DNA of 64,000 bases from Nocardioides kongjuensis. GTDB lineage: Bacteria > Actinomycetota > Actinomycetes > Propionibacteriales > Nocardioidaceae. Made by a program: the position numbers and the translations under genes. Of the stretch, positions 614-28,252 are shown piece after piece. Location of the stretch: NCBI RefSeq assembly GCF_013409625.1, contig NZ_JACCBF010000001.1:3661001-3725000 (forward strand), in the 5' to 3' direction. How positions within the stretch are numbered: position 1 is the stretch's first letter; each line of letters starts with the position of its first letter. The notes under the pieces were generated by a model. The model searched no databases, was not told the DNA's origin, and saw nothing but the letters and a program-made list of their open reading frames with translations.

Positions 614-817
614 TCAGTCGCACGGCACGCCGAGTGCATGCCGTCCATCGTGCGTGACCTCGTGCAGCCACGAGTCCATCTCGGCAGAGAGGAGAGAGTC
701 GTTCCCCTGGAGGATCAAGAACACGGCAAGCAGCGCCACGGCCGCGAGTGCCGAGGCCCAGAGCGGCACGGCCGACGGGGTGGGACGATGGGCGAGGGGG
801 GTGGATTCGATGTTCAC
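614..817 (-). CDS. cbtB: Cobalt transporter subunit CbtB
   Basis: A 67-residue protein with one hydrophobic helix (about residues 20-37) and the typical C-terminal His/Cys segment HEVTHDGRHALGVPCD. CbtB is the small partner of CbtA in cobalt uptake systems. The GTG start at 817 has a GGAGG sequence just upstream and overlaps the stop of the nitrile hydratase activator gene (GTGA). It is therefore translated with the nitrile hydratase operon. Length and motif fit the family. Confidence 0.85.
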   Translation of the reverse strand: MNIESTPLAHRPTPSAVPLWASALAAVALLAVFLILQGNDSLLSAEMDSWLHEVTHDGRHALGVPCD

Positions 818-4089: not shown

Positions 4090-4228
4090 GTTCAATCCTC
4101 TTCTCCTCCCGGGCGTATGTGGCGATCCTCACGCCGGAGGCGCGGTCAGGGGAACAGAGACACCCCAGAGCCGGAGGACAAGGCTTCTCGGAATACGCAA
4201 GCCCGTCGTCCGACCGCGGCGGAGGCGG

Positions 4229-5374
4229 TCACAGACCGAGGTCGCGCCCGATCAGCTCCTTCATGATCTCGTTCGAGCCGGCCCAGATCTTCGTGATCCG
4301 AGCGTCCCGCCAAGCGCGACCCACGCGATACTCGTTCATGAACCCGTAGCCGCCGTGCAGCTGTACGCAGCGGTCGAGCACCTCCGACTGCGCCTGGGCT
4401 GCCCACCACTTGGCCTTCGCGGCATCGATGGCGGTGAGCTCTCCCCGCACGTGGGCCATGACGCACTTGTCGACGTATGCCTCCGCGACCTCGATCTGGG
4501 TGAAGAGCTCGGCGAGCAGGAACTTGTTGTGCTGGAAGGTTCCGACAGGTTGCCCGAACGCCTCGCGCTCCTTGGTGTAGACCAGCGTCTCCTCAAGGAT
4601 CTGCTTGGCATGAGCGACATTGCTGATGGCGGACCCGAGTCGCTCCTGCGGGAGCCACTGCATCATGTGGATGAAGCCGTGGTCGAGCTCGCCGATGAGC
4701 TCCGCATCCGTGACCCGCACGTTGTCGAAGAACAGCTCTGCCGTGTCCGACTCCTCCTGGCCGACCTTATCGAGCTTGCGGCCGCGGGAGAAGCCCTCCT
4801 TGGTGGTCTCGACCGCGAAGAGCGAGATCCCGCGCGCCTTCTTGTCGGGGCTGGTCTTGGCCGCGACCAGGACCAGGTCGGCGGAGTAGCCGTTGGTGAT
4901 GAACGTCTTGGAGCCGTTGATCACCCACTCGTCCCCGTCACGGACCGCGGTGGTCTTCAACGCGGCCAGGTCCGATCCCCCGCTCGGCTCCGTCATCCCG
5001 ATCGCACACAGGATCTCGCCCGACGCGATACCTGGCAGCCAGCGCTTCTTCTGCTCCTCGGTGCCCAGCTCGACGAAGTAGGGCACCACCGTGTCCGAGT
5101 GGATGCCCCAGCAGCTGTTGAGGGCCGCGACGACCTTCGAGGTCTCCTCCCCCAGCACCGCCGCGAACCGGAAGTCCTCGGCGCCGCTGCCGCCGTACTC
5201 CTCCGGGATGCCGAGGCCCAGCAACCCCTGCTCGCCCGCTGCAAGCCATAGCTCGCGCGGGAAGGCCTTGTTCTCCACGTAGGAGTCAAGATTCGGAATG
5301 ACCGAGCGCTCCATGAATTCCCGGACGGACTTCCGGAACGCCTCGTGGTCACTGTCGTAGATCTCGCGTCTCAC
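4229..5374 (-). CDS. Acyl-CoA dehydrogenase
   Basis: An FAD-dependent acyl-CoA dehydrogenase of 381 aa catalysing alpha-beta dehydrogenation of an acyl-CoA. It shows the family segments CAIGMTEPSGGSDLAAL (flavin/substrate loop), GSKTFITNG and the C-terminal QLHGGYGFMNEY and IWAGSNEI motifs. The last motif lacks the Glu used as base in short/medium-chain enzymes, a pattern found where the base sits elsewhere. GTG 5374 is preferred because homology begins at RREIYDSDHEAFRK; the longer frame to 5422 is unlikely. It lies 50 bases downstream of the aldehyde dehydrogenase and probably shares its promoter. Confidence 0.9.
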   Translation of the reverse strand: MRREIYDSDHEAFRKSVREFMERSVIPNLDSYVENKAFPRELWLAAGEQGLLGLGIPEEYGGSGAEDFRFAAVLGEETSKVVAALNSCWGIHSDTVVPYFVELGTEEQKKRWLPGIASGEILCAIGMTEPSGGSDLAALKTTAVRDGDEWVINGSKTFITNGYSADLVLVAAKTSPDKKARGISLFAVETTKEGFSRGRKLDKVGQEESDTAELFFDNVRVTDAELIGELDHGFIHMMQWLPQERLGSAISNVAHAKQILEETLVYTKEREAFGQPVGTFQHNKFLLAELFTQIEVAEAYVDKCVMAHVRGELTAIDAAKAKWWAAQAQSEVLDRCVQLHGGYGFMNEYRVGRAWRDARITKIWAGSNEIMKELIGRDLGL

Positions 5375-5424
5375 GTGCTGCTGCCTTGCCTTTCGTGATG
5401 TGGTGAGTCGGCGTTTCCGCACAC

Positions 5425-6768
5425 TCAGCGGACGATCCGGATCATCTTCCGGTTCAGGAACTCCTCGATGCCGAGCCGGCCAAGCTCACGGCCGAAGCCC
5501 GATCGCTTGACACCACCGAAGGGCATCTCGGGTCCCATCGCGTTGACCCCGTTGACGAAGACCATGCCGGCGTCCAGCCGGGTCGCGACCCGACGCGCCT
5601 GCTCGGCGTCCGTGGTGAAGATGTAGGAGCCGAGTCCGTAGTCGGTGTCGTTCGCGACCCGGATCGCCTCCGCCTCGTCTCGAACCTTGAACACCATTGC
5701 GACCGGCCCGAACAGCTCTTCGCGAGCGACGGCGCTGCTCTCGACGCCCGTGAGCACACCGGGGGCGAACCAGGCACCTCCCTGCTCCTCGGCGCCGGCG
5801 AGGGTCGCGCCGTCAGCGACGGCCTGCGACACCTGCTCCTCCAACCGCTCCGCCGCAGCACCGGACGACAACGGCGCCGCGGGCATCGCCGTCAGCCGTG
5901 CACTGAACTTCGTCACAAAATCGTCGTACAGGTCCTCGTGGACGATCATGCGCTTGCCTGCGTTGCACGCCTGGCCGCCGTTGGCCACACGTGCCATCAC
6001 GGCCGCGTCCACGGTTGCGTCCATGTCATCGGTGCTGAGCACGATGAACGGGTCGGAACCACCGAGCTCGAGGACGACCTTCTTCAGGTGCCGGCCGGCG
6101 ATCTCGGCGACTGCCGCGCCGGCCCGCTCGGATCCGGTCAGCGACACACCCTGGACGCGGCGGTCGGCGATCACGGCCTCGATCTGGGCGTTCGTCGCGT
6201 AGATGTTGTTGTACGCGCCGGCCGGGAAGCCGGCGTCGGCGAAGAGCTGGGCCAGCGCGGCGGCGGACTCCGGGCACTGTGGGGCGTGCTTGAGGACGAT
6301 CGTGTTGCCGGCCACCAGGTTCGGCGCGGCGAAGCGGGCGACCTGATAGACGGGAAAGTTCCACGGCATGATGCCGAGCAGCACTCCGAGCGGCTGCCGC
6401 TGGATGAGGGCGGAGCCGCCGCCCCACTGGACCGGGATCTCCTCGTCGGCGAGGAAGGCCTCTGCGTTCGCCGCGTAGTAGGCGAAGATGCTGGCGCTGA
6501 AGTCGACCTCCATGAGCGCCTGGTCGAGCGGCTTTCCCATCTCGCGGCTGATGATGGCCGCGAGCTCGTCCCGCCGCTCCGTGTGGAGCTCGGCGGCGCG
6601 CCGCGTGCACTTCGCCCGGTCGCTGACGGCGGCGTCGCGCGCCCAGGTCTCGTAGGCCTCGGACGCGTTCGCCACGGCTGCCATCACGTCGTCGTCGGTG
6701 GCCGTCGGATAGGCGCGGACCTCCTCGCCCGTTGCGGGGTCGACCACGGCATAGCGTTGCTCAGACAT
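5425..6768 (-). CDS. NAD(P)+ aldehyde dehydrogenase, succinate-semialdehyde type
   Basis: An aldehyde dehydrogenase of 447 aa oxidising an aldehyde to the acid. Visible are the nucleotide-binding and Glu segment VVLELGGSDPFIVL, the catalytic Cys in NGGQACNAGKR and the C-terminal PFGGVKRSGFGRELG. The short N-terminus and overall pattern resemble succinate-semialdehyde dehydrogenases (GabD/Sad group), but the substrate cannot be fixed from sequence. It is the first gene of a two-gene unit with the acyl-CoA dehydrogenase, behind a promoter with an overlapping palindromic operator at 6868-6883. Confidence 0.9.
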   Translation of the reverse strand: MSEQRYAVVDPATGEEVRAYPTATDDDVMAAVANASEAYETWARDAAVSDRAKCTRRAAELHTERRDELAAIISREMGKPLDQALMEVDFSASIFAYYAANAEAFLADEEIPVQWGGGSALIQRQPLGVLLGIMPWNFPVYQVARFAAPNLVAGNTIVLKHAPQCPESAAALAQLFADAGFPAGAYNNIYATNAQIEAVIADRRVQGVSLTGSERAGAAVAEIAGRHLKKVVLELGGSDPFIVLSTDDMDATVDAAVMARVANGGQACNAGKRMIVHEDLYDDFVTKFSARLTAMPAAPLSSGAAAERLEEQVSQAVADGATLAGAEEQGGAWFAPGVLTGVESSAVAREELFGPVAMVFKVRDEAEAIRVANDTDYGLGSYIFTTDAEQARRVATRLDAGMVFVNGVNAMGPEMPFGGVKRSGFGRELGRLGIEEFLNRKMIRIVR

Positions 6769-6866
6769 CCATCTCTCCGTTCATGAGGGCCGACGAGTCG
6801 CTGCCGTCAGCGGGTCGCGCTCGGCGCGGGCGTCGAGGGCGACTCGATCTGGTCGCACGCCCTCAA

Positions 6867-6896
6867 ATGATAGTGCGCTATCACTGTAGCGGTCAC
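6867..6896 (-). promoter_or_regulatory. Candidate promoter with overlapping palindromic operator (ALDH/ACAD)
   Basis: On the minus strand a -35-like GTGACC (6891-6896), an 18-base spacer and a -10 TATCAT (6867-6872) precede the aldehyde dehydrogenase. The palindrome TGATAGTGCGCTATCA (6868-6883) covers the -10 box and differs by one base from a perfect 16-bp palindrome. A near copy occurs at 25633-25648. This placement suits a repressor. The promoter is by eye only; the palindrome is certain. Confidence 0.55.
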
Positions 6897-6951
6897 TGTG
6901 AAGTGCCGGCAAGGGGATCGGGGAGATTTGTCCTTCGAGAGGACCAGGTGA

Positions 6952-7743
6952 TCAGAGCTGCCAGGAGCGCAGCGCCCGCGTCACGCTCTCGGGCGGCGTC
7001 ACCGACCGCTGCGCGCGGGCGTCGAAGAACACCAGGGTGGAGCTTCCCCTGGCCACGATCGTGGCGCCGCTTGCCACCACCGAGTCGATGGCCATCGAGC
7101 GGTTGCCGATCCGGGACACCCAGCTCCACATCTCCACGGACTCCCAGTGCTCGGGAGCGGGGCGGTGGAAATGGACGTCCTTCTGGGCGACCACGGTGGA
7201 GGTCGGCTCGAGGTCCATCTCCGCCATCAGCGCGATCCGCGCCTCCTGAAGGAACTCGAAGACCGCGGTATCCGCCACGTCCCCCCGCGGCGACAGGTCC
7301 GCCACACGGACGGCGACCCGCAGGTGATGACCGCGTTCGACCACGATCGGGGCCACCGAGGGCCGCTCCCCCTGGCTCCGTGATGGCGGGGAACCCAGGA
7401 CGGCTCTCGACCTGGCATGCACACGCGGGCTCCCGGTCCCTTCCTCGCACAGCTCGGCCAGGACGACCGGTTCCTGAGGGCTCGGGTCGACCCAGGCGCG
7501 GGTCGCGATGGTCGCGCCGGTGCCGAACATGAGGGGCCTGAGATAGGTGACGGCCTGCCGCGTCACCGCCAGGCCATCCTCGAGGAAGGCGCGATGCGCG
7601 TCCTCGAAGTAGGCGGCGTACGCGACGTTGTTGACATGCCCCAGCGCGTCGACGTCGGCCCACCGGAGCTGCACCGCCCGCCGCACCGCGTCCGACCGTT
7701 CAGGACCATCCGGCACCGCCGGTGCGGCTCCTTGCAACGACAT
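6952..7743 (-). CDS. Acyl-CoA thioesterase, tandem hotdog fold
   Basis: A 263-residue protein with two 4HBT hotdog units. The first begins at about residue 20 with RWADVDALGHVNNVAYAAYFED, shortened here to its key D-x-x-x-H-V-N-N-x-x-Y pattern. The second, at about 140, has VADTAVFEFLQEARIALM. Such proteins hydrolyse acyl-CoA thioesters or act as fatty-acyl thioesterases (FadM-like). Start ATG 7743 has AGAGG eight bases upstream; ATG 7749 in frame is an alternative. It is divergent from the TetR gene at 7887, which probably controls it. Confidence 0.8.
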   Translation of the reverse strand: MSLQGAAPAVPDGPERSDAVRRAVQLRWADVDALGHVNNVAYAAYFEDAHRAFLEDGLAVTRQAVTYLRPLMFGTGATIATRAWVDPSPQEPVVLAELCEEGTGSPRVHARSRAVLGSPPSRSQGERPSVAPIVVERGHHLRVAVRVADLSPRGDVADTAVFEFLQEARIALMAEMDLEPTSTVVAQKDVHFHRPAPEHWESVEMWSWVSRIGNRSMAIDSVVASGATIVARGSSTLVFFDARAQRSVTPPESVTRALRSWQL

Positions 7744-7886
7744 CCACATCACCTCTCGCCTCGCACCGCGGCGTCGTGCCGGATGTTCCTCCTGGCAGCC
7801 CCCGCGACATGGCACCTCCGCGTGTTCACGGCGCCGACCCGGGCGACACGCCCTAGACTGCGCCGCAGACCGAAGGAGAGGTGCGC

Positions 7887-8567
7887 GTGGCATCGGACAG
7901 TCCCCCGCAGTTGGGCCTGCGGGAGCGCAAGAAGCAGGAAGCCATGGGCCGGATGCTCGCCGCGGCCCGCGACCTGATGTGGGATCGCGGGTTCGACGCT
8001 GTCACGACCAAGGAGATTGCTGCGCGCGCTGACGTCGGGGAGGCCACTCTCTTCCGCTATTTCCCATCGAAGCTCGACTTGTTCCTGATGGTCTACGGCG
8101 AGGAGTTCGAGCGGGTCGTCGACGCGTGCGCCGAGCAGGAGGCCGACAACCACGCGACCGTGTCGCGCGATGCCGAGGCCTATGTCGATCGCATCCTGGC
8201 CAGCTACCGCATGTTCGCCGAGCTCTATGTGAGATATCCCGACCTGGCCTTCACCTACGTGAAGGAATCGTTCGGCGCCCACACGGACGTGGCACAGAGC
8301 GGGCTCGCCTACGCGAACCGGTGGTTCGAACTGCTCGAGGCGATCGTGGTGCAGGCCCAGACGGCACGCGCGTTCGCGAGCATCGACGCGGCGGTCGTCG
8401 TCCAGAACTGTCACGCGCTCTACGTCCACGAGGTGCTCCGCTCCCATGCACGGGGCCTGCCGTCGGCGAAGCTGCCGGATCGCCTGACGCATCGCCTCGA
8501 GGTTCTGCTGCGCCCGCTCCAGATCCTCCCTAAGGCGAAGTGGCTCGAGCAGCTGGCCTCGATCTGA
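7887..8567 (+). CDS. TetR-family transcriptional regulator
   Basis: A 226-residue regulator with an N-terminal helix-turn-helix (about residues 12-58; VTTKEIAARADVGEATLFRYF) and a C-terminal ligand-binding domain of the kind often sensing acyl-CoA. GTG 7887 has AAGGAG (7873-7878) at ideal spacing; GTG 7881 is too close. It is divergent from the thioesterase. It is a candidate, not proven, for binding the TGATAGTGCACTATCA-type sites at 6868 and 25633, though no copy lies in its own upstream region. Confidence 0.9.
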   Translation: MASDSPPQLGLRERKKQEAMGRMLAAARDLMWDRGFDAVTTKEIAARADVGEATLFRYFPSKLDLFLMVYGEEFERVVDACAEQEADNHATVSRDAEAYVDRILASYRMFAELYVRYPDLAFTYVKESFGAHTDVAQSGLAYANRWFELLEAIVVQAQTARAFASIDAAVVVQNCHALYVHEVLRSHARGLPSAKLPDRLTHRLEVLLRPLQILPKAKWLEQLASI

Positions 8568-8576
8568 GGACCGCAC

Positions 8577-8591
8577 CCCGACCGCTTCGGG
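8577..8591. terminator. Short hairpin between convergent genes
   Basis: CCCGA (8577-8581) pairs with TCGGG (8587-8591) over a five-base loop in the 25-base gap between the convergent TetR and monooxygenase genes. It is short and has no T tract, so it is only a weak terminator candidate. Confidence 0.3.
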
Positions 8592-8592
8592 C

Positions 8593-9972
8593 TCAACTCA
8601 GACTGTCGTCGGCCCGGACCGCTCTCGCCCCGGGGTGGGTTGCCGATAGCCGCTTGTTCCCCGGTCCTGCGACGTACTCCCGCAGGGTCTCGCCCTCGTA
8701 GTCCTTCCAGACCCGTCCGCGCTTCTGCAGTTCGGGAACGACCGTGTCGACGAACGCTTCGATGTCGTACGGCGCGACGGCGTACGACAGGTTGATCCCG
8801 TCGAGATCGCCCTCGTCGATCCAGCGCTCGATCTCGTCCGCGACGGTCTCGGCGCTGCCGACGAGGACCGGCTCGACCCCTCCGATGCTCATGTGGTCAC
8901 CGATGTCGGCCGGCGTCCACTCCCGCGTCGGGTCCAGCTTGGTGAACAAATCCAGGACCGTCTGGATGGCATTGGTGTCACCGGCGGCCAGCGGGCTGTC
9001 CCGGTCGAAGCGCGCGAGGTCGACCCCGGAGAAGCCGCCGAACAGCGCCATCGCTCCCTCGGGCGACGCGTACTGCTGGTACTGCTTGTACCGGCGCTCA
9101 GCCTCCGCATCGGAGTCGGCGACCACCGCCGTGAGAATGGTGTAGATCTTGACGTCGTCCCGCTTGCGGCCGGCGGCCTCGACCTGGTCGCGGATGTCCT
9201 TGGTGATCACCCGGCTCAGTCGGGAGTTGAGGACGTTCACGAAGAGGCCTTCGCCATGCTCCGCAGCGAAGGAGCGGCCGCGGGACGAGGCGCCCGCCTG
9301 AAAGATCACCGGGGTCTTCTGCGGCGAGGACTCGGCCATGTTGAAGCCGTCGACCTCGAAGTAGCGGCCCTTGTGGCGAATGGGGTGGACCTTCTCCGGG
9401 TTGACGTAGATGCCGCGCTCGCGGTCGAGCTCTACGGCGTCGTCGTCCCACGACCTCTCCCACAGCTTGTACATGACCGACATGAACTCCTCGGCCATCT
9501 CATAGCGCTCGTCGTGCGGCAGGGGCTTCGTGCCGAAGTTCCGCGATGCGCTGGGGAGGTACGACGTGACGACGTTCCAGCCCACCCTGCCCTTGGTCAG
9601 GTGGTCCAGGGTGCTGAAGCGCCGCGCCAGCGGGTAAGGGTGCTCGAACGTGGCCGACGCCGTGAGAGCGAAGCCCAGCCGCTCGGTCACCGACGCCATC
9701 GCCGAGACGTACTGGAAGGGGTCGTTCGCGGGGATCTGCATCCCGTTGCGCAGCGCTGGGTCGACCGAGCCCTCGTAGATGTCGTAGGGGCCCAGGACGT
9801 CGGCGAGGAAGATGGCGTCGAACCGTCCACGCTCGAGAGTGCGCGCCAGGTCCAGCCAATGGTCCAGGTCCTTATAGCGATGGGCCTGGCTCTGCGGGTG
9901 CCGCCACAGGCCCGAGCTCTGGTGCCCTGCGGCCGTCATGTTGAAGGCGTTGAGGGCGATGCGCTTGCTCAC
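8593..9972 (-). CDS. FMN-dependent monooxygenase, NtaA/SnaA/DszA family
   Basis: A 459-residue flavin-dependent monooxygenase of the bacterial luciferase superfamily. The group includes nitrilotriacetate (NtaA), dibenzothiophene sulfone (DszA) and pristinamycin (SnaA) monooxygenases, which use reduced FMN from a separate reductase. Family segments include MTAAGHQSSGLWRHP, FDAIFLADVLG, GRVGWNVVTSYLPSASRNFG and FQAGASSRGRSFAAEHGEG. ATG 9972 is the natural start. A perfect palindrome at 10004-10017 sits just upstream. A possible reductase partner is encoded at 24402-25583, though it is not adjacent. Confidence 0.9.
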   Translation of the reverse strand: MSKRIALNAFNMTAAGHQSSGLWRHPQSQAHRYKDLDHWLDLARTLERGRFDAIFLADVLGPYDIYEGSVDPALRNGMQIPANDPFQYVSAMASVTERLGFALTASATFEHPYPLARRFSTLDHLTKGRVGWNVVTSYLPSASRNFGTKPLPHDERYEMAEEFMSVMYKLWERSWDDDAVELDRERGIYVNPEKVHPIRHKGRYFEVDGFNMAESSPQKTPVIFQAGASSRGRSFAAEHGEGLFVNVLNSRLSRVITKDIRDQVEAAGRKRDDVKIYTILTAVVADSDAEAERRYKQYQQYASPEGAMALFGGFSGVDLARFDRDSPLAAGDTNAIQTVLDLFTKLDPTREWTPADIGDHMSIGGVEPVLVGSAETVADEIERWIDEGDLDGINLSYAVAPYDIEAFVDTVVPELQKRGRVWKDYEGETLREYVAGPGNKRLSATHPGARAVRADDSLS

Positions 9973-10098: not shown

Positions 10099-10503
10099 TC
10101 AGCCGCCTTGGGCCCCAACCGTGGCGGTGACGTCCTCGACACCGTGGATGATGTGGGTGATCGCGCCGCTCTCGTCGAACACGGGCTGGTTGACCGGCCT
10201 CCAGTACCGGGCCTGGAAGACGCCGTCGGCGTCCGCGATGTCGTACCGCGTCACCGGCATCGCGTGGCCGGCCTTCTCGTCCAACACCCGCTGGAGAGCC
10301 GCGAGCATCGTCGCGGTGCCCGAGGCCTCGGGATCGTCGGGGTTGTCCGGGAACACCTCGAACTGGCTCCGCCCGACGACCTCGTCACGAGCCCGCCCGT
10401 CCAGACAGGTGTCCGTGACGGCCACGATTTGCCAGTCGAGGTCGAGCACTAGGTAGTTGGCGGGGATCGCGTTGAAGAGGCGCTCGAAGTCGAGTGTGTT
10501 CAT
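10099..10503 (-). CDS. Stand-alone PAS-domain protein
   Basis: A 134-residue protein made almost wholly of one PAS fold: IPANYLVLDLDWQIVAVTD opens the domain and GVFQARYWRPVNQPVFDESG with ITHIIHGVEDVT closes it. PAS modules bind small ligands or cofactors. No kinase, GGDEF or HTH domain is attached, which is unusual, since this variant is normally the sensor part of histidine kinases. It may be a truncated sensor or a free-standing adaptor. It is transcribed away from the acyl-CoA synthetase, with 262 bases between them. Confidence 0.75.
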   Translation of the reverse strand: MNTLDFERLFNAIPANYLVLDLDWQIVAVTDTCLDGRARDEVVGRSQFEVFPDNPDDPEASGTATMLAALQRVLDEKAGHAMPVTRYDIADADGVFQARYWRPVNQPVFDESGAITHIIHGVEDVTATVGAQGG

Positions 10504-10765
10504 GGGTGAGGCTCCTGGCTGGGGTCGACGGGTGCTGACAGCAGTCGAGCATGTGACCGAACCTGCTGACGAGTACGAACTTCGGACCCATCACCCGAGA
10601 CACCTCGCGGCCGCACATGAGCCCTTGGCGATAATGCAAGGTCCGCCGCCAAAAGGCTGCGCACTCCCTATAGCGGGGTGTACACGGAGCCTCCAAGATC
10701 ACGTCTGCCACAGGTTCCGCAGACATCTCAGGGACGTGGCTGTCGCGCGACGGAGGAGAGCTCAC

Positions 10766-12301
10766 ATGGTCAATGCGGTGCAGAACATCTGGCGTCATGC
10801 AGATGCGAATCCCGACCACGTCGCCCTGCGGGTCGACCGGCGCTCGTGGAGCTACGGCGAACTGCGGGCCCACGCCCGCAACGCCGCGCGTGAGCTGGCC
10901 GGGCGCGGCGTGACCCGTGGCGACCGCGTCCTCATCATGCTTCCGACGAGCGCGGAGTTCGTCTTCGTCTACCACGGCGTGCTGGCGCTCGGTGCCGTCG
11001 CCGTCACGGTCAACACTCTGTGCACGCCCCGCGAGATCGACTACTTCCACTCCGACGCCGAGTGCGTGCTGGCCGTCGGTTGCCCTGACACTCGAGACGC
11101 CCTTCTCGCGTCGTCCGACAGGCCGGCCTGGATCGTCGAGCCCGACTCGCTCGTGGCGGCTAGGACACCGGTCGACAACGCGATGACCTACGTGGAGGCG
11201 GATCCGGTCGATGCCGCCGTCCTGCTCTACACGTCTGGAACCACCGGGAGCCCCAAGGGCGCGGTCCTGACGCACGGCAACCTCCTGGCCTGCGGCCGGT
11301 CGTTGTCACAGATCCAGGGGCTCGAGCCGGAGGACCGGGTGGGCACGGCGCTTCCACTCTTCCACGTCTTCGGCCAGGCCTCGGTGATGGCCTCGGTGCA
11401 GCACGCCGGTGCCGCGCTGTCGCTGCTTCGGCCATTCGATGCCGTGCAGATGCTCGACATGGCTGTCTCCCACCGACTGACCATGATGGCCGGCGTACCG
11501 ACCATGTGGAACGAGATGCTTCATGCCGACACCCCCATCACGGCCGACGACCTTCCCGACCTTCGCTACTTCCTCACAGGCGGCGCACCGCTTCCCCACG
11601 CGGTCAGGATCGAGTTTGAGACCCGGTTCGGCGCGCGCGTACTCGACGGCTACGGGCTGAGCGAGACGACTGGAGCCGCCACCGGCCAACCCCTCGCCGA
11701 GGAACCCAAGGAGGGCAGCGTCGGTCGCGCCGTCCCTGGCTGCCAGCTTGCCATCCTCGGGGCAGATCATCAGCCGGTGCCCGCCGGTGAGATCGGCGAA
11801 GTCGCCGTCCAGGGACCCAACGTCATGCGGGAGTACTGGAACCGGCCGGATGCCACCGCCGCCGTACAGAGCGGCCCCTGGTTCCTCACCGGCGATCTCG
11901 GCCGGATGGACGAAGACGGGGACCTGTGGATCGTCGGCCGGCTCAAGGAGCTGATCATCCGCGGGGGGTACAACGTCTACCCCGCTGAGGTCGAGGACGT
12001 CCTCTACCGCCACCCGGCAGTCGTGGAATGCGCGGTGATCGGCATCCCCGACGAACGCCTGGGCGAGGAGGTTGCCGCCGTCCTGGTCCTCCAACCGGGT
12101 CACGACCTCGACGTGGCCCAGGTGCGCACCTGGCTGGGTGAGCGACTCGCCTCGTACAAGGTCCCGCGCGTCTACCACCTCCGCGATGCCCTCCCGAAGG
12201 GCTCGACGGGCAAGATCCTCAAGCGCGCGATCGACGTCGACGACGTCGCACAGCACGGCATCAGGACCCGCCGCAGCGACAGCACGAAAGCGACCGCCTG
12301 A
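10766..12301 (+). CDS. Acyl-CoA synthetase (AMP-forming)
   Basis: A class I adenylate-forming ligase of 511 aa activating a carboxylic acid to its CoA thioester with ATP. The P-loop LLYTSGTTGSPKGAVLTHGN (20 residues), the GYGLSETTG motif, the hinge region WFLTGDLGRMDEDGDLWIVG, YNVYPAEVEDVL and the C-terminal catalytic Lys in PKGSTGKILKRA are all present. ATG 10766 has GGAGGAG (10752-10758) at good spacing. It would activate the acid released by the nitrile hydratase/amidase pair for the nearby dehydrogenase, MaoC, SDR and thiolase. Its exact chain-length preference is unknown. Confidence 0.92.
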   Translation: MVNAVQNIWRHADANPDHVALRVDRRSWSYGELRAHARNAARELAGRGVTRGDRVLIMLPTSAEFVFVYHGVLALGAVAVTVNTLCTPREIDYFHSDAECVLAVGCPDTRDALLASSDRPAWIVEPDSLVAARTPVDNAMTYVEADPVDAAVLLYTSGTTGSPKGAVLTHGNLLACGRSLSQIQGLEPEDRVGTALPLFHVFGQASVMASVQHAGAALSLLRPFDAVQMLDMAVSHRLTMMAGVPTMWNEMLHADTPITADDLPDLRYFLTGGAPLPHAVRIEFETRFGARVLDGYGLSETTGAATGQPLAEEPKEGSVGRAVPGCQLAILGADHQPVPAGEIGEVAVQGPNVMREYWNRPDATAAVQSGPWFLTGDLGRMDEDGDLWIVGRLKELIIRGGYNVYPAEVEDVLYRHPAVVECAVIGIPDERLGEEVAAVLVLQPGHDLDVAQVRTWLGERLASYKVPRVYHLRDALPKGSTGKILKRAIDVDDVAQHGIRTRRSDSTKATA

Positions 12302-12352: not shown

Positions 12353-14002
12353 TCACAGGTAGTACAGCCGCGAGAGCGCGACCTTGTCGACCGGTCGACT
12401 CGTGAGGGCGTGCCCGTCGAGGGTGACCGAGGTGGTGTCGGGATCGACCTCGACCACGCCCGTGCGTCCGTGGTGAACCATCGCGGACAGGTCGACGGTG
12501 CGGGTGTCCCGCACGGCGACGCGGAGTCGCCGGGTCGGTGCCGTGTCCTTGCCGGAGTCGAGGCTGGCCTGGCTCACGTAGAGGACGGAGAGCTCCATCG
12601 CGGCGGCTCCATGGCCGCCCAGGTGGGGCCCGAGGACGATGGGCTCGGCGAGCGGGACGGAGGCGTTGGGATCGCCCGTCGTGCCCCAGGCCGGGAACCC
12701 GGACTTCAGAACCATCTCGGGAGTCGTCCCGAAACGGGCGGGTGACCACAGGACGAGGTCGGCTCGGAGACCGGGTGCGACGCGGCCGATGTCATGGCTC
12801 AGGCCGTGTGCGATCGCAGGGTTCGTGGTGAGCTTGGCCAGGTAGCGCAGCACACGGGCGTTGTCGTGCCGCTCGTGATCGGCCCCTCGCTCAGCCTTCA
12901 TCTTGCCCGCGAGGGCGAAAGTACGACGAACCGTCTCCCCGGCCCTGCCCATGCCGAGTGCGTCGGAGGAAGTGATGGGAATGACACCGAGGTCGTGGAG
13001 GACGTCCTCGGCCGCCATGGTGGAGGCGCGGATCCGGTCGCGTGCTCGTCGCGTCGCATCGGCCATGTCGCCCGAATGACCGTGCACCGCCAAGATCATG
13101 GGCACGTGCTCGGCGATCGCATCCCGACCGAAGGGGAGTGTCGGGTTGGTCGAGGACGCGATCACGTTGGGGACGCCAGCGAGCCGCAGCACGTCCGGGA
13201 CGTGTCCTCCACCGCAGCCTTCGACGTGGAAGGCGTGCACGGTCCGTCCACCGATCACGGCCAACGTGTCGGCGACCGAACCTGACTCGTTGAGCCCGTC
13301 GGTGTGCAGCGCGACCTGGACGTCGTACTCGTCGGCGACGTTGAGAGCAGTGTCCAGGGCGCGGGGATGAGCCCCCAGGTCCTCGTGGACCTTGAAGCCG
13401 CACACGCCGCCATCGACGACTGCTTCGACCAGCGCGTGCGGAGTGGAGGACGACCCACGGCCGAGGATGCCGACATTGACCGGCCAGTCGTCGAATGCCG
13501 ACTGTGCCGCGCGCAGAGCCCACGGCGAGTTGACGCCGACTCCCCACACGCGTCCGAACTCCTGACAGATGACGGTCGTCACGCCGCTGGACAGTGCTTC
13601 CTCGAGGACGCGCGGCGTCAGGAGGTGGACATGGGTGTCGATCACCCCGGCGGTGAGCAGCATGCCGTCGGCGTCGATGATGGTCGTGCCGGTTCCGACC
13701 ACGACATCGACGCCGTCGAGTGTGTCGGGATTGCCGGCGCGACCGATGGCCGAGATCCGCCCTGACCGGACGCCGATCGAAGTGCGCACGACGCCGAGCT
13801 CGGGGTCCAGGACAAGCGCATTGACGATGGCGATGTCACACGTCTCCCCTGCCCTCGCTGCCTTGAGATGGAGGCCGTCCCTCGCGGTCTGAGCGAAGCC
13901 CACGGTGAACTCTTCGGTGGGCTTCTCCGCGTCGTGCTCGACCTCGACGACCAGTCCGCTGTCGCCCAGCACCACGCGATCGCCTTGATGGAAGCGCGTC
14001 AT
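12353..14002 (-). CDS. Divergent urease alpha subunit-like amidohydrolase
   Basis: A 549-residue relative of UreC. By my alignment to the classical enzyme, the metal and catalytic residues persist: H124 and H126 (DTHVH), K204 for carbamylation with H206 (FKVHEDLG), H233, H259, H307 on the flap and D347 (SSDALGMGR). The flap Cys (C319 in Klebsiella numbering) is replaced by Val306, and the loop between H126 and K204 is three residues shorter. Its ATG overlaps the stop of the fused gamma-beta gene (ATGA). No ureD, E, F, G or H lies in the window. True urease, or an enzyme for another ureide or amidine, are both possible. Confidence 0.85.
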   Translation of the reverse strand: MTRFHQGDRVVLGDSGLVVEVEHDAEKPTEEFTVGFAQTARDGLHLKAARAGETCDIAIVNALVLDPELGVVRTSIGVRSGRISAIGRAGNPDTLDGVDVVVGTGTTIIDADGMLLTAGVIDTHVHLLTPRVLEEALSSGVTTVICQEFGRVWGVGVNSPWALRAAQSAFDDWPVNVGILGRGSSSTPHALVEAVVDGGVCGFKVHEDLGAHPRALDTALNVADEYDVQVALHTDGLNESGSVADTLAVIGGRTVHAFHVEGCGGGHVPDVLRLAGVPNVIASSTNPTLPFGRDAIAEHVPMILAVHGHSGDMADATRRARDRIRASTMAAEDVLHDLGVIPITSSDALGMGRAGETVRRTFALAGKMKAERGADHERHDNARVLRYLAKLTTNPAIAHGLSHDIGRVAPGLRADLVLWSPARFGTTPEMVLKSGFPAWGTTGDPNASVPLAEPIVLGPHLGGHGAAAMELSVLYVSQASLDSGKDTAPTRRLRVAVRDTRTVDLSAMVHHGRTGVVEVDPDTTSVTLDGHALTSRPVDKVALSRLYYL

Positions 14003-14790
14003 GACTGGGCTGCCCCGTCGCTGCTGGGCCAGCAGCTCGCGTACGGAACGCCAGACGTGCCGAGAAGACCAGCCTCTCGGGCACGACGGAAGGCCGCGTC
14101 ACGCACGGCAGGGTCGTCGAGCTGACCGTCGACATAGCCGGAGAAGCCCACGACCACACGATCACCCCCGATGGGTACGAGCTCGACATCCTTCGCCACA
14201 CCTGGGTCGAAGCGGATGTTGGAGCCGCCCGCCAAGGCCAGCCGCCGTCCGTAGGCGGACGCACGATCGAAGCGCAGCAGCGGATTGACCTCGAAGAAGT
14301 GGAAATGGGAGGTGACGGTGATCGGCACGGCTCCCGTGTTGGTCACCACGAGCCTGACGACACTCGCCGGATCGAACGCGGCGCCCCGGGACGCGGTGGC
14401 CGCCATCTCACCTCGGAGCACCGTGCCGGGAGGCAACCTGCCCGCCTCGGCTGCGCTCAGCGTCGGGTCCGGTGGGGGTGAGCTGGCGGGGCCGAACGGT
14501 TCCGTCACGACAACGAGGCGGGCCCCGTCGTCGAAGGTCGCCTCCACGGCCACCGCGCCGACGATCTCCGGCACACCGGGCAACAGCTGGGCGCGGGATA
14601 GCGCGTGTTGGCCGGCGACCAGCGCCTCCGTGTGCCTGAGGCCGTCCCTCGCGGCTTCGACCACCGCGTCGGCGACGATCGCCGTGGCCTCCGGGGCGTT
14701 GAGGAGAACGCCTCGCTGCAGCCTGCGGCGCGCGAGCTCGGCGACGAGGAAGATCTGGAGGTGGTCGTTCTCCGTCGGAGTCAGGTGCAT
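13999..14790 (-). CDS. Fused urease gamma-beta subunit
   Basis: A 263-residue fusion. Residues 1 to about 100 match UreA (gamma; opening MHLTPTENDHLQIFLVAELA, then LLPGVPEIVGAVAVEATFDD). Residues about 120-235 match UreB (beta; PGTVLRGEM, VTSHFHFFEVNPLLRFDR). Gamma-beta fusions also occur in Helicobacter. In urease these parts form the scaffold around the alpha active site. The gene is followed by ureC-like in an ATGA overlap and preceded 37 bases upstream by the deacetylase-fold gene, all in one operon with an ABC importer. Confidence 0.88.
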   Translation of the reverse strand: MHLTPTENDHLQIFLVAELARRRLQRGVLLNAPEATAIVADAVVEAARDGLRHTEALVAGQHALSRAQLLPGVPEIVGAVAVEATFDDGARLVVVTEPFGPASSPPPDPTLSAAEAGRLPPGTVLRGEMAATASRGAAFDPASVVRLVVTNTGAVPITVTSHFHFFEVNPLLRFDRASAYGRRLALAGGSNIRFDPGVAKDVELVPIGGDRVVVGFSGYVDGQLDDPAVRDAAFRRAREAGLLGTSGVPYASCWPSSDGAAQS

Positions 14791-14827
14791 CGGGGCTTCT
14801 TCGTGGGCGACATCGTGGCGCGTTCGG

Positions 14828-15946
14828 TCAACCGTGCTGGGGTACCCGGCTCAGGTTCTTCGCCGCGACCTCGATCGCGGCACCTTGGTGCGGCAGCAGA
14901 CCGAGCCCCTCGGTCGTCGCGTACCCCTGGTAGGGGTCGACGACCTCCGTCGCGATGCCAGACAGTTCCTCGAGGACCGCGAGTCCGTAGTAGGGCACGG
15001 TCCAGCGGGAGTAGCCGCCCTCATGCAAGAACACCAGGCGACCGTCACACAACTGGTCTGCGGCCACCAGCAGCTTCTGCGTGAGCTCGCGATACCCGCT
15101 CGAATGCATGAGCATCCTCCCCATCGGGTCCATGTGACCGGCATCGAAGCCACAGGGGACGATGATGAGGTCGGGACGGAACCTCTCCAGCGCGGGAAGC
15201 ACGATGGTGTCGAAGACTTCGTTGTACGCCGCCGCCGAGCAGCCGGGAGGCAGCGGAACGTTCAGGTTCGTTCCCGCCGCCGGCCCCTCGCCGACCTGGT
15301 CAACGAAGCCGTCGTCCGGTGGGAAGAGGCGGTCCTGGTGAATCGAGATCGTGAGCGCCCGAGGCTCGTCGTACAGCGCGGCCTGGGTCCCGTTGCCGTG
15401 ATGCACGTCCCAGTCGACGAGAGCAACTCGGTCCAGCCCGCCCTGTTCCAGAGCATGCCGCGCAGCGATCGCCGCGTTGGAGAAGATGCAGAAGCCCATC
15501 GAACGATCCGGCTCAGCGTGGTGTCCCGCAGGCCGGAGGAGGGCATAGGCATTGTCCACCTCGCCCTTGACGACCGCGTCGACCGCAGCGATGGCTCCGC
15601 CCGCAGCGAGGGAGGCGATCTCGTACGCGCCGCGGGGAACGGGTGCGAACACCCCGATCTCACCACCCATGGGCAGGTCGGAGAGGTCCTTCACCGACTG
15701 GATGAAGGCGGCGGGGTGGACGAGGGCGAGCTCAGCCTCCGACGCCTTGCGAGGCGCGACCCGGGTCAACTGGTCGAGCAAGCCGCTCACCTCGACCAGG
15801 CTGCGGAAACGCCGTACGACCTCATGGTCATAGACATGTCGATCGGGTTGGATGCTCAAGCCGTCCGGGTGGACGAGGCCCGCGTCTTGGCCCAGGTCGA
15901 ACCATGCGTACTTCTCGTGCCAGACGAATCCGGTGCGTCGTGTCAT
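14828..15946 (-). CDS. Histone-deacetylase-fold amidohydrolase
   Basis: A 372-residue zinc amidohydrolase of the arginase/deacetylase superfamily, related to acetylpolyamine amidohydrolases and class II HDACs. The active site looks intact: His142-His143 (RPAGHHAEP), metal ligands Asp180 and His182 (DWDVHHGNG), Asp268 (CGFDAGHMDP) and the transition-state Tyr312 (HEGGYSRW). It probably removes an acyl group from an amine or amide in the cytoplasm. Its place between the importer and the urease-like genes suggests it prepares the imported compound for the urease-like enzyme. This is inference; the substrate is unknown. Confidence 0.88.
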   Translation of the reverse strand: MTRRTGFVWHEKYAWFDLGQDAGLVHPDGLSIQPDRHVYDHEVVRRFRSLVEVSGLLDQLTRVAPRKASEAELALVHPAAFIQSVKDLSDLPMGGEIGVFAPVPRGAYEIASLAAGGAIAAVDAVVKGEVDNAYALLRPAGHHAEPDRSMGFCIFSNAAIAARHALEQGGLDRVALVDWDVHHGNGTQAALYDEPRALTISIHQDRLFPPDDGFVDQVGEGPAAGTNLNVPLPPGCSAAAYNEVFDTIVLPALERFRPDLIIVPCGFDAGHMDPMGRMLMHSSGYRELTQKLLVAADQLCDGRLVFLHEGGYSRWTVPYYGLAVLEELSGIATEVVDPYQGYATTEGLGLLPHQGAAIEVAAKNLSRVPQHG

Positions 15947-15961
15947 CGGTGTTCCTTTCCC

Positions 15962-16987
15962 CTACGCCTTGCCTGAGCGTCGTTGGGAGATTGCAGTGGA
16001 CACGGCGACAGCCACGAGGAGTGCGACGCCGTTGAATGTGGGCTCGACCCAGTCCGCCGCGCCGGCGAGCACCAGGCCGTTGACGCTGAAGGCCACGAAA
16101 AGGACTCCGAGGAGCGTGCCGACAACATTGAAGGTTCCAGGCTTGATCGCGGTAGCGCCCAGGAACGCCGCGGACAAGGCGGGAAGGGTGAATCCCGGAC
16201 CGACCAGCGGATTGGCCGTTCCGGCACGAGCCAGCAACAACACGCCCGCTATGCCGCACAGCACACCGGAGAGCACGAAGCTGGAGAGGACCATGCGGGA
16301 GACGTCGAGTCCCACCAGACGTGCTGACGTCGGGCTCGAACCCACCGACGCGAGGTAGCGCCCATAGGGCGTGTGTCGGAGCAGGTAGTAGACCAGCACC
16401 GAGATGAACACAAGCGCCCACAGGGTGCGCGGAACTCCCAGCCACTGCCCGGATCCGACGTTGGTCAGGGCTTCGGGAATCCCGGTACTGAGCACCTGGT
16501 TCTCCGTGTACAGGCTGATCAGTCCCGCAACAACGGTCGAGGTACCAAGAGTTGCGATGAGGGCGTTCACGTCGCGATAGGCGACCAACCAGCCATTCAG
16601 CAGTCCGACTACAGCTCCCGAGAGAACTCCCAGGGAGACAGCGACGGCAAGGGGCAGTTCGTGCGTTGCAGCCGCGCTACCCGTGACGATGGACGACAGG
16701 CCGATCATGGCACCCACCGACAGGTCGAACTTGCCACACGTGAGGGGAAGAATGGAGGCAAGGGCTGCCACGGCGATGACCGACTGACTGCCGAGCACGT
16801 TCCTGAAATTCGCAAGGGTCGGGAACGTCTCCGCCGTCTGCCCATAGACCGTGAAGAACAGGCACAGCGCCGCGAACAGGACGGCGAGCGCGTACTTCTC
16901 GAGCTGGGCAAGCAGTTCTGGACCTCTGCGCAAAGTCGCAGGCGCCGCGGAGCCAACAGTCGCTTCACGGTTGGTTGCCATGGTCAC
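15962..16987 (-). CDS. ABC transporter permease, RbsC/BPP class
   Basis: A 341-residue inner-membrane permease of the ribose/autoinducer-2/simple-sugar group, with about ten hydrophobic segments. Family stretches include LGSQSVIAVAALASILPLT, KFDLSVGAMIGLSSIV and GVLCGIAGVLLLARAGTANP. GTG 16987 is chosen because GAGGAG lies eight bases before it and it overlaps the ATPase stop (GTGA); ATG 16981 is the alternative. It works with the ATPase at 16984 and the lipoprotein at 18528. The 15-base gap to the deacetylase gene shows operon membership. Confidence 0.9.
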   Translation of the reverse strand: MTMATNREATVGSAAPATLRRGPELLAQLEKYALAVLFAALCLFFTVYGQTAETFPTLANFRNVLGSQSVIAVAALASILPLTCGKFDLSVGAMIGLSSIVTGSAAATHELPLAVAVSLGVLSGAVVGLLNGWLVAYRDVNALIATLGTSTVVAGLISLYTENQVLSTGIPEALTNVGSGQWLGVPRTLWALVFISVLVYYLLRHTPYGRYLASVGSSPTSARLVGLDVSRMVLSSFVLSGVLCGIAGVLLLARAGTANPLVGPGFTLPALSAAFLGATAIKPGTFNVVGTLLGVLFVAFSVNGLVLAGAADWVEPTFNGVALLVAVAVSTAISQRRSGKA

Positions 16988-18531
16988 GCCACGTTCTCCT
17001 CGGACAGGTATGAAAGCTCAGTGAGACGATGGGCCTCGATGTCAGCGCCGGTCACCTCTGCGCAGACTCGTCCCTCCCGCAGGACCAGGACCCGGTCGGC
17101 CGCGAGGGCGAGTTCCTCGAAGTCGGAGGTGACGAGCAGAACGGCAGTCCCCGCTTCGACGGAGCGTCGGACATGGGCGTAGATGTCTGCGCGCGCCTGG
17201 ACATCGACGCCCTGGGTCGGCTCGTCCAGCATCAGGACGAGCGGATCGCGCCGCAGCCACCTGGCGAGCACGACCTTCTGCTGGTTGCCGCCGGAGAGGG
17301 TTCCCGCCAGAGCAGTGTCGCTGGCGGGCTTCACGCCAAAGCTTGCGATCAGACCCCGCGCATCGGCGCGCTCCCTGCGATGCTGTAGTCGACCCGCTGA
17401 CCAGTAGCGGGGAACGACAGCAGCCGACAGATTCTCCCGCACCGACTGAGAGGGGAACAACGCCTCGTCACCGCGGTCCTCCGGCACCAGTCCGAAGCCC
17501 GCCCGGATCGCCGCGGCCGGACGGGAGGGCATGTAGGGAGCCCCGTTCAGGCGAATCTCGCCCTCCGTGGCGGGCAGGTCGCCGAACAGTGCCCTCAACA
17601 GTGCACTGCGGCCCGACCCCAACAGGCCTGCGATGCCCAGGATCTCGCCCCGATGCAGGTCCAGGTCCACTCCCCGGAGCGGACCGGCGACAAGTCCCCG
17701 TACCGACAAGACGCGCTCCTTATCGATCTCGCCCACCCGAGCAGGAATCACCCGGTCGAGGCTGCGGCCTGCGATCAGCTCGACCAACTGCCCTTCGGTC
17801 ATGCCGGCCACCTCGCGGGTCACCACCTGGGCGCCGTCTCGCAGCACCGTGACGCGGTCGGCGATCTCGAGGATCTCTGAGAGACGATGACTCACGTAGA
17901 CGATCGTTTGGCCGGCCGCTGCGAACTTGCGCAGAGCGCCCAGGAGGATGCCGACCTCCCAGTCCGGCAGCGAGGCGGTCGGCTCGTCCAGGACGAGCAC
18001 CCCGTCATGAGCACCATCTTGGTCCTGGAGTGCCCGTGCGATCGCCAGCATCGTGCGCTCTGCTGGGCGCAGGGTTGATACCTGTGAGTCGGGTGAGATG
18101 TCCAGGGAGAACCGCTTCAGCACGTCGGCCGCGTGTCGCCGGGTCGTGCCCCAGTCGATGCGACCACCCGTCGCTCGGGCGAAGCCGCGGCCGATCGCGA
18201 GGTTCTCGGCCACGGTCAGCGCACCGAAAACAGCCGGGTCCTGGTGCACGAAAAGCAGTCCAGCGGACCGAGCCAGCGTGGGAGACCACTCATCGGCATC
18301 CGCGGAGACGCCTTGGACCTCGATCGTCCCGCCCGGATCGGCGTCGTAGACCCCGGCCAGCAGCTTGATGAGTGTGGACTTGCCCGAGCCGTTGCCCCCC
18401 AGCAGCGCGTGCACCTCCCCGCGACGCACCACCAGGCGGGCGTCGCGAAGGACCGCGGTACCGGCGAAGGTCTTGCTGAGCCCCTTGGTCCGCAGCACGA
18501 TGTCGTCGACGCCAGCAGGAACACCGGTCAT
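16984..18531 (-). CDS. ABC transporter ATP-binding protein, double-domain sugar type
   Basis: A 515-residue protein with two fused ATPase domains, as in RbsA/MglA/XylG. The first has Walker A GGNGSGKST, a diverged signature (LRPAERTMLAIARAL) and Walker B VLVLDEPTASL. The second has a degenerate Walker A (GLLGSGRSALL), the signature LSGGNQQKVVLARWL and LVLMLDEPTQGVD. One intact and one degenerate site is normal for this class. The start ATG 18531 overlaps the binding-protein stop (ATGA). The substrate class of such importers includes sugars and also other polar molecules, so the transporter type does not fix the substrate. Confidence 0.93.
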   Translation of the reverse strand: MTGVPAGVDDIVLRTKGLSKTFAGTAVLRDARLVVRRGEVHALLGGNGSGKSTLIKLLAGVYDADPGGTIEVQGVSADADEWSPTLARSAGLLFVHQDPAVFGALTVAENLAIGRGFARATGGRIDWGTTRRHAADVLKRFSLDISPDSQVSTLRPAERTMLAIARALQDQDGAHDGVLVLDEPTASLPDWEVGILLGALRKFAAAGQTIVYVSHRLSEILEIADRVTVLRDGAQVVTREVAGMTEGQLVELIAGRSLDRVIPARVGEIDKERVLSVRGLVAGPLRGVDLDLHRGEILGIAGLLGSGRSALLRALFGDLPATEGEIRLNGAPYMPSRPAAAIRAGFGLVPEDRGDEALFPSQSVRENLSAAVVPRYWSAGRLQHRRERADARGLIASFGVKPASDTALAGTLSGGNQQKVVLARWLRRDPLVLMLDEPTQGVDVQARADIYAHVRRSVEAGTAVLLVTSDFEELALAADRVLVLREGRVCAEVTGADIEAHRLTELSYLSEENVA

Positions 18532-19754
18532 GAAATGCCCCAGATCTTCCGGTAATTGGCCTCGTAGTCCTGTTTGGGGGTGCCGTCCGCGTCCACGTTC
18601 CCGTCGTAGTACGTCGTCTCGCTCGGGAAGGGCCCCTCGCCGTCGATCGTCTGGTAGCCGATCCCAGAGTCCACCTGGGGCTCCCCCTGCAACAGGCGGT
18701 TCATGCCGTCGATAGCAGCCCAACCCACCCAGCGCGCCGGCGTACCCGCAATGAAGTCCTGGCCCTTGTCGTCCCGCACGAAGCCGACGTTGGGAGTCAA
18801 ACCCTCACCACCGACGACCAACACATCGTCGTTGCGTCCTGAGGCCACCACGGCCTGGGCAATGCCTGCAGTCAACGCTGCGTCGTAGGGCACGTAGACC
18901 ACATCGGCCTGCGGGTTCTGCGTCAGTGCGGCCTCGGTCTTGCCCTGGAGCTTCCCCGTCACGAGGTCAGTCAGGGTGAAGGGCACCTTCTTCACGATCT
19001 CGCACCCGCCGCAGTTGGCGATGCGCTTCTCGAAGCCCAAGTTCAGGTGCTGAGCGATTAGGATGTCCGTCTCGGTGAACTCGATGATCTTCGCCCCACC
19101 GTCCGTGCTGGCGATCGCGTAGTCGGCCTGGCTGCGGGAGTAGCGCTCCTCGCTGAACTCCTGATACGTGATGCCGCCCGCTAGGAGAAGTTGGGCGTCG
19201 AACAGGGGGGCGCCACCCGAGGCGAGCATCGGGTCGTCGCAGTCGAAGGCGTAGAAGGCGAACGTCTTGACTCCCGCCTGCTTGGCATTCTCCAACGCGC
19301 TCTTGGCATTGACGCAGTCGACGTTCGCGAGGATGATCCCGTCCGCCCTGGCCGCAATGGCGGAGTTGATCCCGTTGGCATACTCCTCAGGGCTGCCTTT
19401 GCCGTCGACGATCGTGACGTCCCAACCGACGGCTTCACCAGCCTCCTTGGCTCCCTCGGCAGGCACCGAGCAGCCCTCGGCCGCCATGGTCGAGCAGATC
19501 ACCCAGATGTTCTGGCCGGCCTGTGGCGCCGGCCCAGTGGTGGGCAGCGGGCCGTCCTGGCCCTCTCGATTCGCTCGCACTGCCGCTGTGGCCTCTGTGA
19601 GGACGTCCTCAGAGGTTTCGCCACCGCTGCCGGAATCGGCGCCAGAACCTCCGCACGCGGAAAGGAACAGCAGACCTGCGGTCAGCGATGCCATCAACAA
19701 CTGATGCCGAAGCTTCCGAGGGGCGCATCCACGCGTACCGGTGATCTGTGTCAT
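18528..19754 (-). CDS. ABC transporter substrate-binding lipoprotein
   Basis: A 408-residue lipoprotein whose signal peptide ends in the lipobox LSACGG (Cys about residue 34). The mature part has the periplasmic-binding fold of the sugar/autoinducer class: GQNIWVICSTMAAEG, the ADGIILANVDCVNAKSAL loop and the hinge VVIASGRNDDV-like segment. It is the first gene of the importer-deacetylase-urease operon. The 211 bases upstream hold a Shine-Dalgarno GGAGTGGC before ATG 19754 but no operator I can identify. Confidence 0.9.
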   Translation of the reverse strand: MTQITGTRGCAPRKLRHQLLMASLTAGLLFLSACGGSGADSGSGGETSEDVLTEATAAVRANREGQDGPLPTTGPAPQAGQNIWVICSTMAAEGCSVPAEGAKEAGEAVGWDVTIVDGKGSPEEYANGINSAIAARADGIILANVDCVNAKSALENAKQAGVKTFAFYAFDCDDPMLASGGAPLFDAQLLLAGGITYQEFSEERYSRSQADYAIASTDGGAKIIEFTETDILIAQHLNLGFEKRIANCGGCEIVKKVPFTLTDLVTGKLQGKTEAALTQNPQADVVYVPYDAALTAGIAQAVVASGRNDDVLVVGGEGLTPNVGFVRDDKGQDFIAGTPARWVGWAAIDGMNRLLQGEPQVDSGIGYQTIDGEGPFPSETTYYDGNVDADGTPKQDYEANYRKIWGIS

Positions 19755-28250: not shown

Positions 28251-28252
28251 GG

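Follow-up and report, generated by a model that had tools for sequence, protein, structure and literature searches.

A urease-like enzyme encoded with a deacetylase and an importer

What does a urease-like enzyme hydrolyze when its genes run together with those of a deacetylase and a ribose-type importer? The question is raised by six genes of Nocardioides kongjuensis at positions 12353-19754 of the window, by which we mean the whole 64,000-nucleotide stretch analyzed here (C1:3661001-3725000 of genome G000, a single contig of 5.67 Mb). At close to, but not quite, even confidence, we propose that the urease-like pair, called UreAB-UreC2 below, is a ureide hydrolase built on the urease scaffold, independent of the maturation proteins UreD, UreF and UreG (UreDFG) and recruited into a catabolic island. 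The proposal draws on the family identity of the pair, its residue changes, the absence of UreD and UreF from genomes that keep it, its neighborhoods and the conservation of the island. The six genes, which encode the pair, a histone deacetylase (HDAC)-fold enzyme and an ATP-binding cassette (ABC) importer, are as follows.

12353..14002, minus strand: UreC2, urease-alpha-like metallohydrolase, 549 aa (PF00449+PF01979)
13999..14790, minus strand: UreAB, fused urease gamma-beta subunit, 263 aa (PF00547+PF00699)
14828..15946, minus strand: HDAC-fold amidohydrolase, 372 aa (PF00850); top PDB match propanil hydrolase, then HDAH-type enzymes
15962..16987, minus strand: ABC permease (PF02653), arabinose/ribose permease-like, under their equivalog cut-offs
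16984..18531, minus strand: ribose/arabinose-type ABC ATPase carrying two nucleotide-binding domains (two PF00005 stretches), likely 515 aa
18528..19754, minus strand: substrate-binding protein (PF13407), N-terminus lipoprotein-like by eye

All six open reading frames were confirmed, with the Pfam and NCBIfam assignments first given to them. The UreAB and UreC genes overlap by 4 bases, as do those of the ATPase and permease and, provided that the ATPase starts at 18531, those of the binding protein and ATPase; gaps of 15 and 37 bases separate permease from HDAC and HDAC from UreAB. The preliminary description had reported a run with these domains and this spacing, intact metal ligands in the urease-like enzyme, an intact set of checkable active-site residues in the deacetylase and no ureD, ureF or ureG at the locus, and all four points were borne out, by coordinates and domain models, by alignment, by the HDAC motifs found in the sequence and by genome profile searches that place the sole UreD, UreF and UreG matches outside the window. 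The nearest contig record is from Nocardioides albidus, in which the gene order is identical, UreC is 97% identical and the ATPase reading frame likewise has 515 aa. Ratios of dN/dS against N. albidus were 0.083 for UreC, 0.188 for UreAB, 0.096 for HDAC, 0.126 for the permease and 0.174 for the ATPase, indicating purifying selection on these five genes (the binding protein was unmatched by the script). The importer has the parts of a CUT2 (ribose-type) system, namely a PF13407 binding protein, an ATPase with two nucleotide-binding domains and a PF02653 permease, and its genes reach no NCBIfam equivalog cut-off. An Rfam scan of the whole window at gathering thresholds gave no match and thus no known riboswitch.

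UreC2 forms a separate group with an altered substrate pocket

To place the enzyme among its relatives, UreC matches were surveyed across the genus (196 genomes) and the class (296 genomes). The name UreC2 is given here to the UreC group that is ~54-100% identical to the window protein; other UreC proteins are at most 49% identical to it, and among the loci compared none falls between 48.1 and 54.1%. Residues were compared between 101 distinct UreC2 and 26 other UreC proteins, with Klebsiella aerogenes numbering taken from the alignment and with identical proteins and alignments covering under ~480 query residues left out. The six metal ligands, including the bridging lysine, are invariant in both sets, as are the positions of H219, H320 and R336. 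In the window protein the ligands are H124, H126, K204, H233, H259 and D347, and H206, H307 and R323 are retained, with V306 in place of the flap cysteine and G350 in place of Ala363.

Every one of the 101 UreC2 proteins has glycine for Ala363, valine, isoleucine or leucine at the Ala167 position, and aspartate, glycine, alanine or serine for His321. The loop after the Ala167 position has 9 residues in all of them, whereas it has 13 in all 26 comparison proteins, and the flap cysteine (Cys319) is absent from 95 of the 101 but present in 25 of the 26. We take Cys319 to be the mobile-flap residue and the loop and Ala363 to be tied to the substrate, presumably with roles in urea binding. The window protein scores 566.6 bits against the TIGR01792 urease-alpha equivalog, short of the cut-off of 680. 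In a FastTree/LG tree the 38 sampled UreC2 tips all fell into one group; node support after midpoint rooting was low (0.226), and the clade therefore rests on the identity gap and the diagnostic residues. Judged by its sequence, the UreAB-UreC2 pair belongs to an actinobacterial family of its own, with a changed substrate pocket.

Among the 120 closest proteins listed (66-97% identity), all those named by a source are called urease subunit alpha, and we found no open-licence PMC paper that describes UreC2 as a non-urease in its title, abstract or passages. Should UreC2 prove to be a ureide hydrolase, the number of ureases attributed to soil actinobacteria would be too high, a step so far unrecognized would be added to a polyamine or guanidine pathway, and the family would be a natural experiment in building a lysine-bridged two-metal site without UreDFG.

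UreC2 persists without the urease maturation genes

The N. kongjuensis genome also holds an ordinary urease (G000:C1:1391417) with UreF, UreG and UreD adjoining, and whole-genome profile searches found UreD, UreF and UreG matches only near this 1.39-Mb site (UreE and UreH were not searched for). UreC2 occurs both in genomes with and in genomes without an ordinary urease, and to examine maturation genes across the clade we chose 45 genomes: all 17 with UreC2 only, 10 of the 25 with both kinds, 10 with canonical UreC only and 8 without UreC, the last two sets being picked from listings. The class-level UreC search that defined these sets was run at E 1e-50, at which short UreC fragments could escape. 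The 17 UreC2-only genomes belong to seven families and are 93-100% complete. None of them has UreF, UreD or a UreG above the family cut-off; each of the three was found in 10 of 10 genomes with both kinds, in 10 of 10 canonical-only genomes and in 0 of 8 with neither. For UreF and UreD the difference between UreC2-only genomes and those with ordinary UreC (0/17 versus 20/20) gives a Fisher p of 6e-11, uncorrected for ancestry.

One UreC2-only genome, G470, has a partial UreG just under the cut-off at a contig edge and may hold an unassembled urease, and G222, G054 and G402 have weak sub-cut-off UreG matches only. UreF is present in 14 of the remaining 15 genomes with both kinds of UreC. The exception is G281, where the ordinary ureC lies in two separate pieces (G281:C1:445412-448905), one with an internal stop, UreF was not found and UreC2 is intact. 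The absence of UreF and UreD from the 17 UreC2-only genomes means that UreC2 persists without the urease maturation set, and this pattern of gene absence suggests, at the level of the clade, that the accessory genes are not needed.

A further atypical UreAB-UreC lineage was seen at loci L193 (4432-6695) and L196 (3655-5930), which has the short loop, valine in the flap and Gly363 in common with UreC2, so that these changes are not all peculiar to UreC2. No UreF, UreG or UreD lies within the 10.5 kb fetched around either, and an Amidohydro_3-like gene comes next. The L196-type UreC is the only UreC of its genome, G460, in which UreF was not found.

Agmatine-deiminase-family genes are the usual neighbors of UreC2

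Neighboring genes were counted at the 101 distinct UreC2 loci, 80 of which have at least 5 kb on both sides. An agmatine-deiminase-family gene lies within 10 kb in 82 of the 101 and within 5 kb in 65 of the 80 well-covered loci. Other genes within 5 kb at these 80 loci are TetR (57), NCS1 permease (29), Amidohydro_3 (10; within 10 kb, 13 of the 101) and PotD-type binding protein (5), and at L133 two AAT-family genes stand beside UreC2 in one genome. An HDAC gene lies within 5 kb at a single well-covered locus, that of N. albidus.

The association extends to whole genomes, with the deiminase family present in 22 of 27 UreC2 genomes (12 of 17 UreC2-only and 10 of 10 with both kinds) versus 3 of 18 others (3 of 10 canonical-only and 0 of 8 with neither). 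We analyzed 34 deiminase genes, leaving out two fragments of 36 and not counting AguB-like hits below 150 bits. UreC2 genomes hold 31 of the 34, of which 17 are no more than 12 kb from UreC2; each of the 3 in genomes without UreC2 adjoins an AguB-like gene. These neighbor counts imply that in most genomes UreC2 occupies the place that AguB or AguY takes in some others. AguB belongs to the nitrilase family. At most clade loci, though not in this genome, UreC2 has the place of both beside an agmatine-deiminase-family gene; the protein families are unrelated. Passages of PMC12283126 describe AguY as an amidase homologue encoded beside aguA and as a second, unrelated N-carbamoylputrescine amidohydrolase, found in Actinomycetota among others, whose activity was correctly predicted from that position.

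In N. kongjuensis itself the agmatine-deiminase-family gene (L164, 7234-9986) adjoins a PF01425 amidase of 563 aa, which is 92% conserved in N. albidus (L165) and has no match at 60% coverage among the UreC2 loci examined. By position and size this amidase may be of the AguY type. UreC2 as the partner of the deiminase of its own genome is a weakened candidate because of this adjoining amidase; with the AguB/AguY place taken, UreC2 would be free for another role here. At L165 the deiminase-amidase pair adjoins a sequence that partly matches the NCS1 permease found at Streptomyces UreC2 loci.

The deacetylase and importer belong to a catabolic island

The HDAC-fold protein scores 281.6 bits against PF00850 and has the His-His pair, the Asp/His/Asp zinc ligands and the tyrosine of such enzymes. 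Its best PDB match is 9gku (E 4.8e-101), a propanil hydrolase, and its best PDB hits probably place it in sub-cluster 1b of the classical deacylases, a group treated in passages of PMC11532494. It resembles the bacterial members of that sub-cluster (propanil hydrolase, dimethoate hydrolase and HdaH) in sequence and active-site motifs, and differs from them in its setting, a nitrile/amide island where a ribose-type ABC importer is encoded with it.

HDAC orthologues at least 75% identical were found in 4 of the 196 genus genomes, namely our own (G000), N. albidus (G081), G119 and G042. In stretches fetched from the last three and searched with the window genes by tblastn, there are counterparts (61-94%) of the ABC importer genes, and the three also share counterparts of nitrile hydratase, amidase, acyl-CoA and aldehyde dehydrogenases, NtaA-type monooxygenase, ligase, SDR, thiolase, flavin reductase, amine oxidase and crotonyl-CoA reductase. 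In G119 and G042 the HDAC and ABC genes lie in the same island without UreC2. Island genes at lower coordinates than the six in the window are as follows.

814..9972, minus strand: nitrile hydratase subunits, amidase, acyl-CoA dehydrogenase, aldehyde dehydrogenase and NtaA/DmoA-type FMN monooxygenase, with counterparts in N. albidus, G042 and G119
7881-8567, plus strand: TetR gene, within the island
10457..12301, plus strand: acyl-CoA (AMP-forming) ligase, convergent with ureC2; true start probably downstream of 10457

The HDAC and ABC genes thus belong to an amide/nitrile catabolic island of ~50 kb, to which UreAB-UreC2 is an addition in two of the four genomes. More distant HDAC genes have at least one ribose-type importer gene adjoining in 8 of 17 loci (L140, L166-L170, L179 and L180). 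In the own-genome paralogue (L140, 7249-12004) the HDAC-fold gene comes ahead of genes for a binding protein, a ribose-type ATPase and a permease, an amidase and an amino-acid permease are encoded nearby, and this arrangement recurs in other Nocardioides.

Because HDAC and ABC genes occur without UreC2 in two genomes and UreC2 occurs without HDAC elsewhere, the six genes join two modules. Adjacency of UreAB-UreC2 with an HDAC gene, which the preliminary description proposed to look for in other genomes, was seen at only two of the 101 UreC2 loci, those of this genome and N. albidus, and we reject the six genes as a conserved pathway. The same description had envisaged import of an acylated ureide, amidine or polyamine-like compound, deacylation and hydrolysis of the urea-like part. 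The ureide half of that idea gains from the usual neighbor, of a ureide-making enzyme family, and from the amide-bond hydrolases that also stand beside UreC2; the order of events it described would be one way, among others, in which two modules of separate inheritance might be used.

Proposed function and alternatives

In the mechanism that we favor, UreAB and UreC2 would form a urease-like assembly. UreC2 would keep the urease scaffold and its pair of metals, bridged by a lysine that is presumably carbamylated, acquire these metals without UreD, UreF or UreG, and admit to its rebuilt pocket a substituted urea (R-NH-CO-NH2) rather than urea, yielding R-NH2, CO2 and NH3. The ureide would be supplied in most genomes by the agmatine-deiminase-family enzyme encoded nearby, with UreC2 in the AguB/AguY role. 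In the island, the ABC importer may bring in a nitrogen-containing compound, the HDAC-fold enzyme and the island amidase may cut amide bonds, and UreC2 would take off a ureido group, either from the substrate itself or from an intermediate, before or after deacylation by the HDAC-fold enzyme. We infer the ureide chemistry, the identity of the metals, import, the order of steps and the action of these enzymes on one compound. Put more broadly, and held only tentatively, UreC2 proteins would be widespread, mis-annotated, UreDFG-independent metal ureidohydrolases on a urease scaffold, a further unrelated solution, after AguB and AguY, to the hydrolysis of ureides that agmatine-deiminase-type enzymes produce. 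In Nocardioides such a protein would have been put to new use, with N-acylated ureido compounds stripped by it, an importer and a deacylase of the HDAC type together.

Streptomyces coelicolor offers a comparable arrangement. SCO5525-5526 is described in passages of PMC2492869 as a ure(AB)C cluster that, like UreAB-UreC2, has no accessory genes with it, and is listed in part of PMC3293853 as a urea-utilizing ureABC, with SCO5527 listed there among arginine-decarboxylase-pathway homologues. By analogy with other Streptomyces loci, SCO5526 would be a UreC2 and SCO5527 a deiminase. A passage of PMC4991794 uses SCO5526-5524 for nrdABS, probably a slip there.

Several observations weigh against the ureide-hydrolase proposal. 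In the UreC tree described in passages of PMC2492869, SCO5526 groups with fused-AB ureases of other bacteria that have accessory genes, and the window proteins pass the broader NCBI models (UreC2, 661.1 bits for PRK13207 against a cut-off of 354; UreAB, 266.8 for PRK13192 against 243). Of the 80 contig records listed in the UreC search that also gave N. albidus, 64 are Streptomyces by title. No deiminase lies within 10 kb at 19 of the 101 loci, some of them on short contigs, none is present in 5 of the 17 UreC2-only genomes, and that of N. kongjuensis lies ~880 kb from UreC2 beside the PF01425 amidase. The two deiminases tested scored 254 and 309 bits, under the agmatine-deiminase equivalog cut-off of 381.8. 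Of the 31 deiminase genes in UreC2 genomes, 2 lie within 6 kb of an AguB-like gene of at least 150 bits. Across the 45 genomes, every AguB-like gene scored below the 410 bits set as the AguB equivalog cut-off. Finally, a changed pocket does not by itself imply UreDFG independence: L201 (4227-6544) has the short loop and Gly363, L197 and L198 have Gly363, and all three, with altered substrate loops, have UreG adjoining and UreF in their genomes (G472, G243 and G449 for L197, L198 and L201, respectively).

The alternative that survives best, quite possible if short of probable, is compatible with the ureide-hydrolase half of our proposal and holds that the island UreC2 does not act on whatever compound the HDAC and ABC proteins handle, the inserted pair serving general ureide salvage. 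The presence in G042 and G119 of the HDAC and ABC genes and others of the island, but not of UreC2, and the occurrence of paralogous HDAC genes beside ribose-type ABC genes at 8 of 17 loci from which UreC2 is absent, agree with such a division, whereas the tight or overlapping genes on one strand, their identical order in N. albidus and the purifying selection on them suggest co-expression.

Less likely, in our estimation, is a true urease that loads a metal such as iron without accessory proteins and serves as a nickel-independent back-up. Compared with nickel urease (e.g. K. aerogenes UreABC), UreC2 shares the subunits, the fold family, the six ligands and the H219, H320 and R336 positions, but it mostly lacks Cys319, has Ala363 and His321 replaced and a loop four residues shorter, and occurs in genomes without UreD and UreF. 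There is a precedent in Helicobacter mustelae UreAB2, an accessory- and nickel-independent urease according to passages of PMC2846917. That enzyme is a urease used under nickel limitation, unlike the ureide role proposed for UreC2. Its metal is iron, and we know of no agmatine-deiminase link for it. The clade-wide changes in substrate loop and residues, the usual agmatine-deiminase-family neighbor and the presence of UreC2 both with and without ordinary urease all speak against a urease of this sort.

We are equally doubtful that, instead of a ureide, UreC2 hydrolyzes some other C-N bond of a hydantoin-, guanidine- or amidine-like kind. The NCS1-type (cytosine/purine permease-like) genes at 29 and the Amidohydro_3 genes at 10 of the 80 loci would suit this reading; the deiminase neighbor, however, points to ureide products, and the retained urease general acid/base residues would favor urea-like chemistry. 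That UreC2 is simply a second, ordinary urease, with the UreDFG proteins of its own genome maturing it, is very unlikely despite the UreF, UreG and UreD at 1.39 Mb and is rejected for the clade, given 17 genomes that keep UreC2 without UreF and UreD and the changes in its pocket, so that as a clade the enzyme does not look like a urease dependent on distant maturation genes.

Other features of the window

Two further stretches stand apart from the six genes. At 25700-32623 lie an M24/creatinase-like gene, amino-acid-type ABC genes, creatininase, Asp/Glu racemase and a LysR gene; this block is almost without counterpart in the stretches fetched from three related genomes and looks like an insertion. 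Matched genes in 36648-58166 are 97-100% identical to those of N. albidus, versus 60-97% in 814-36651 outside that block. The region, in which 52462-55158 encodes a TrwC-type relaxase, has a level of identity that suggests recent acquisition by horizontal transfer.

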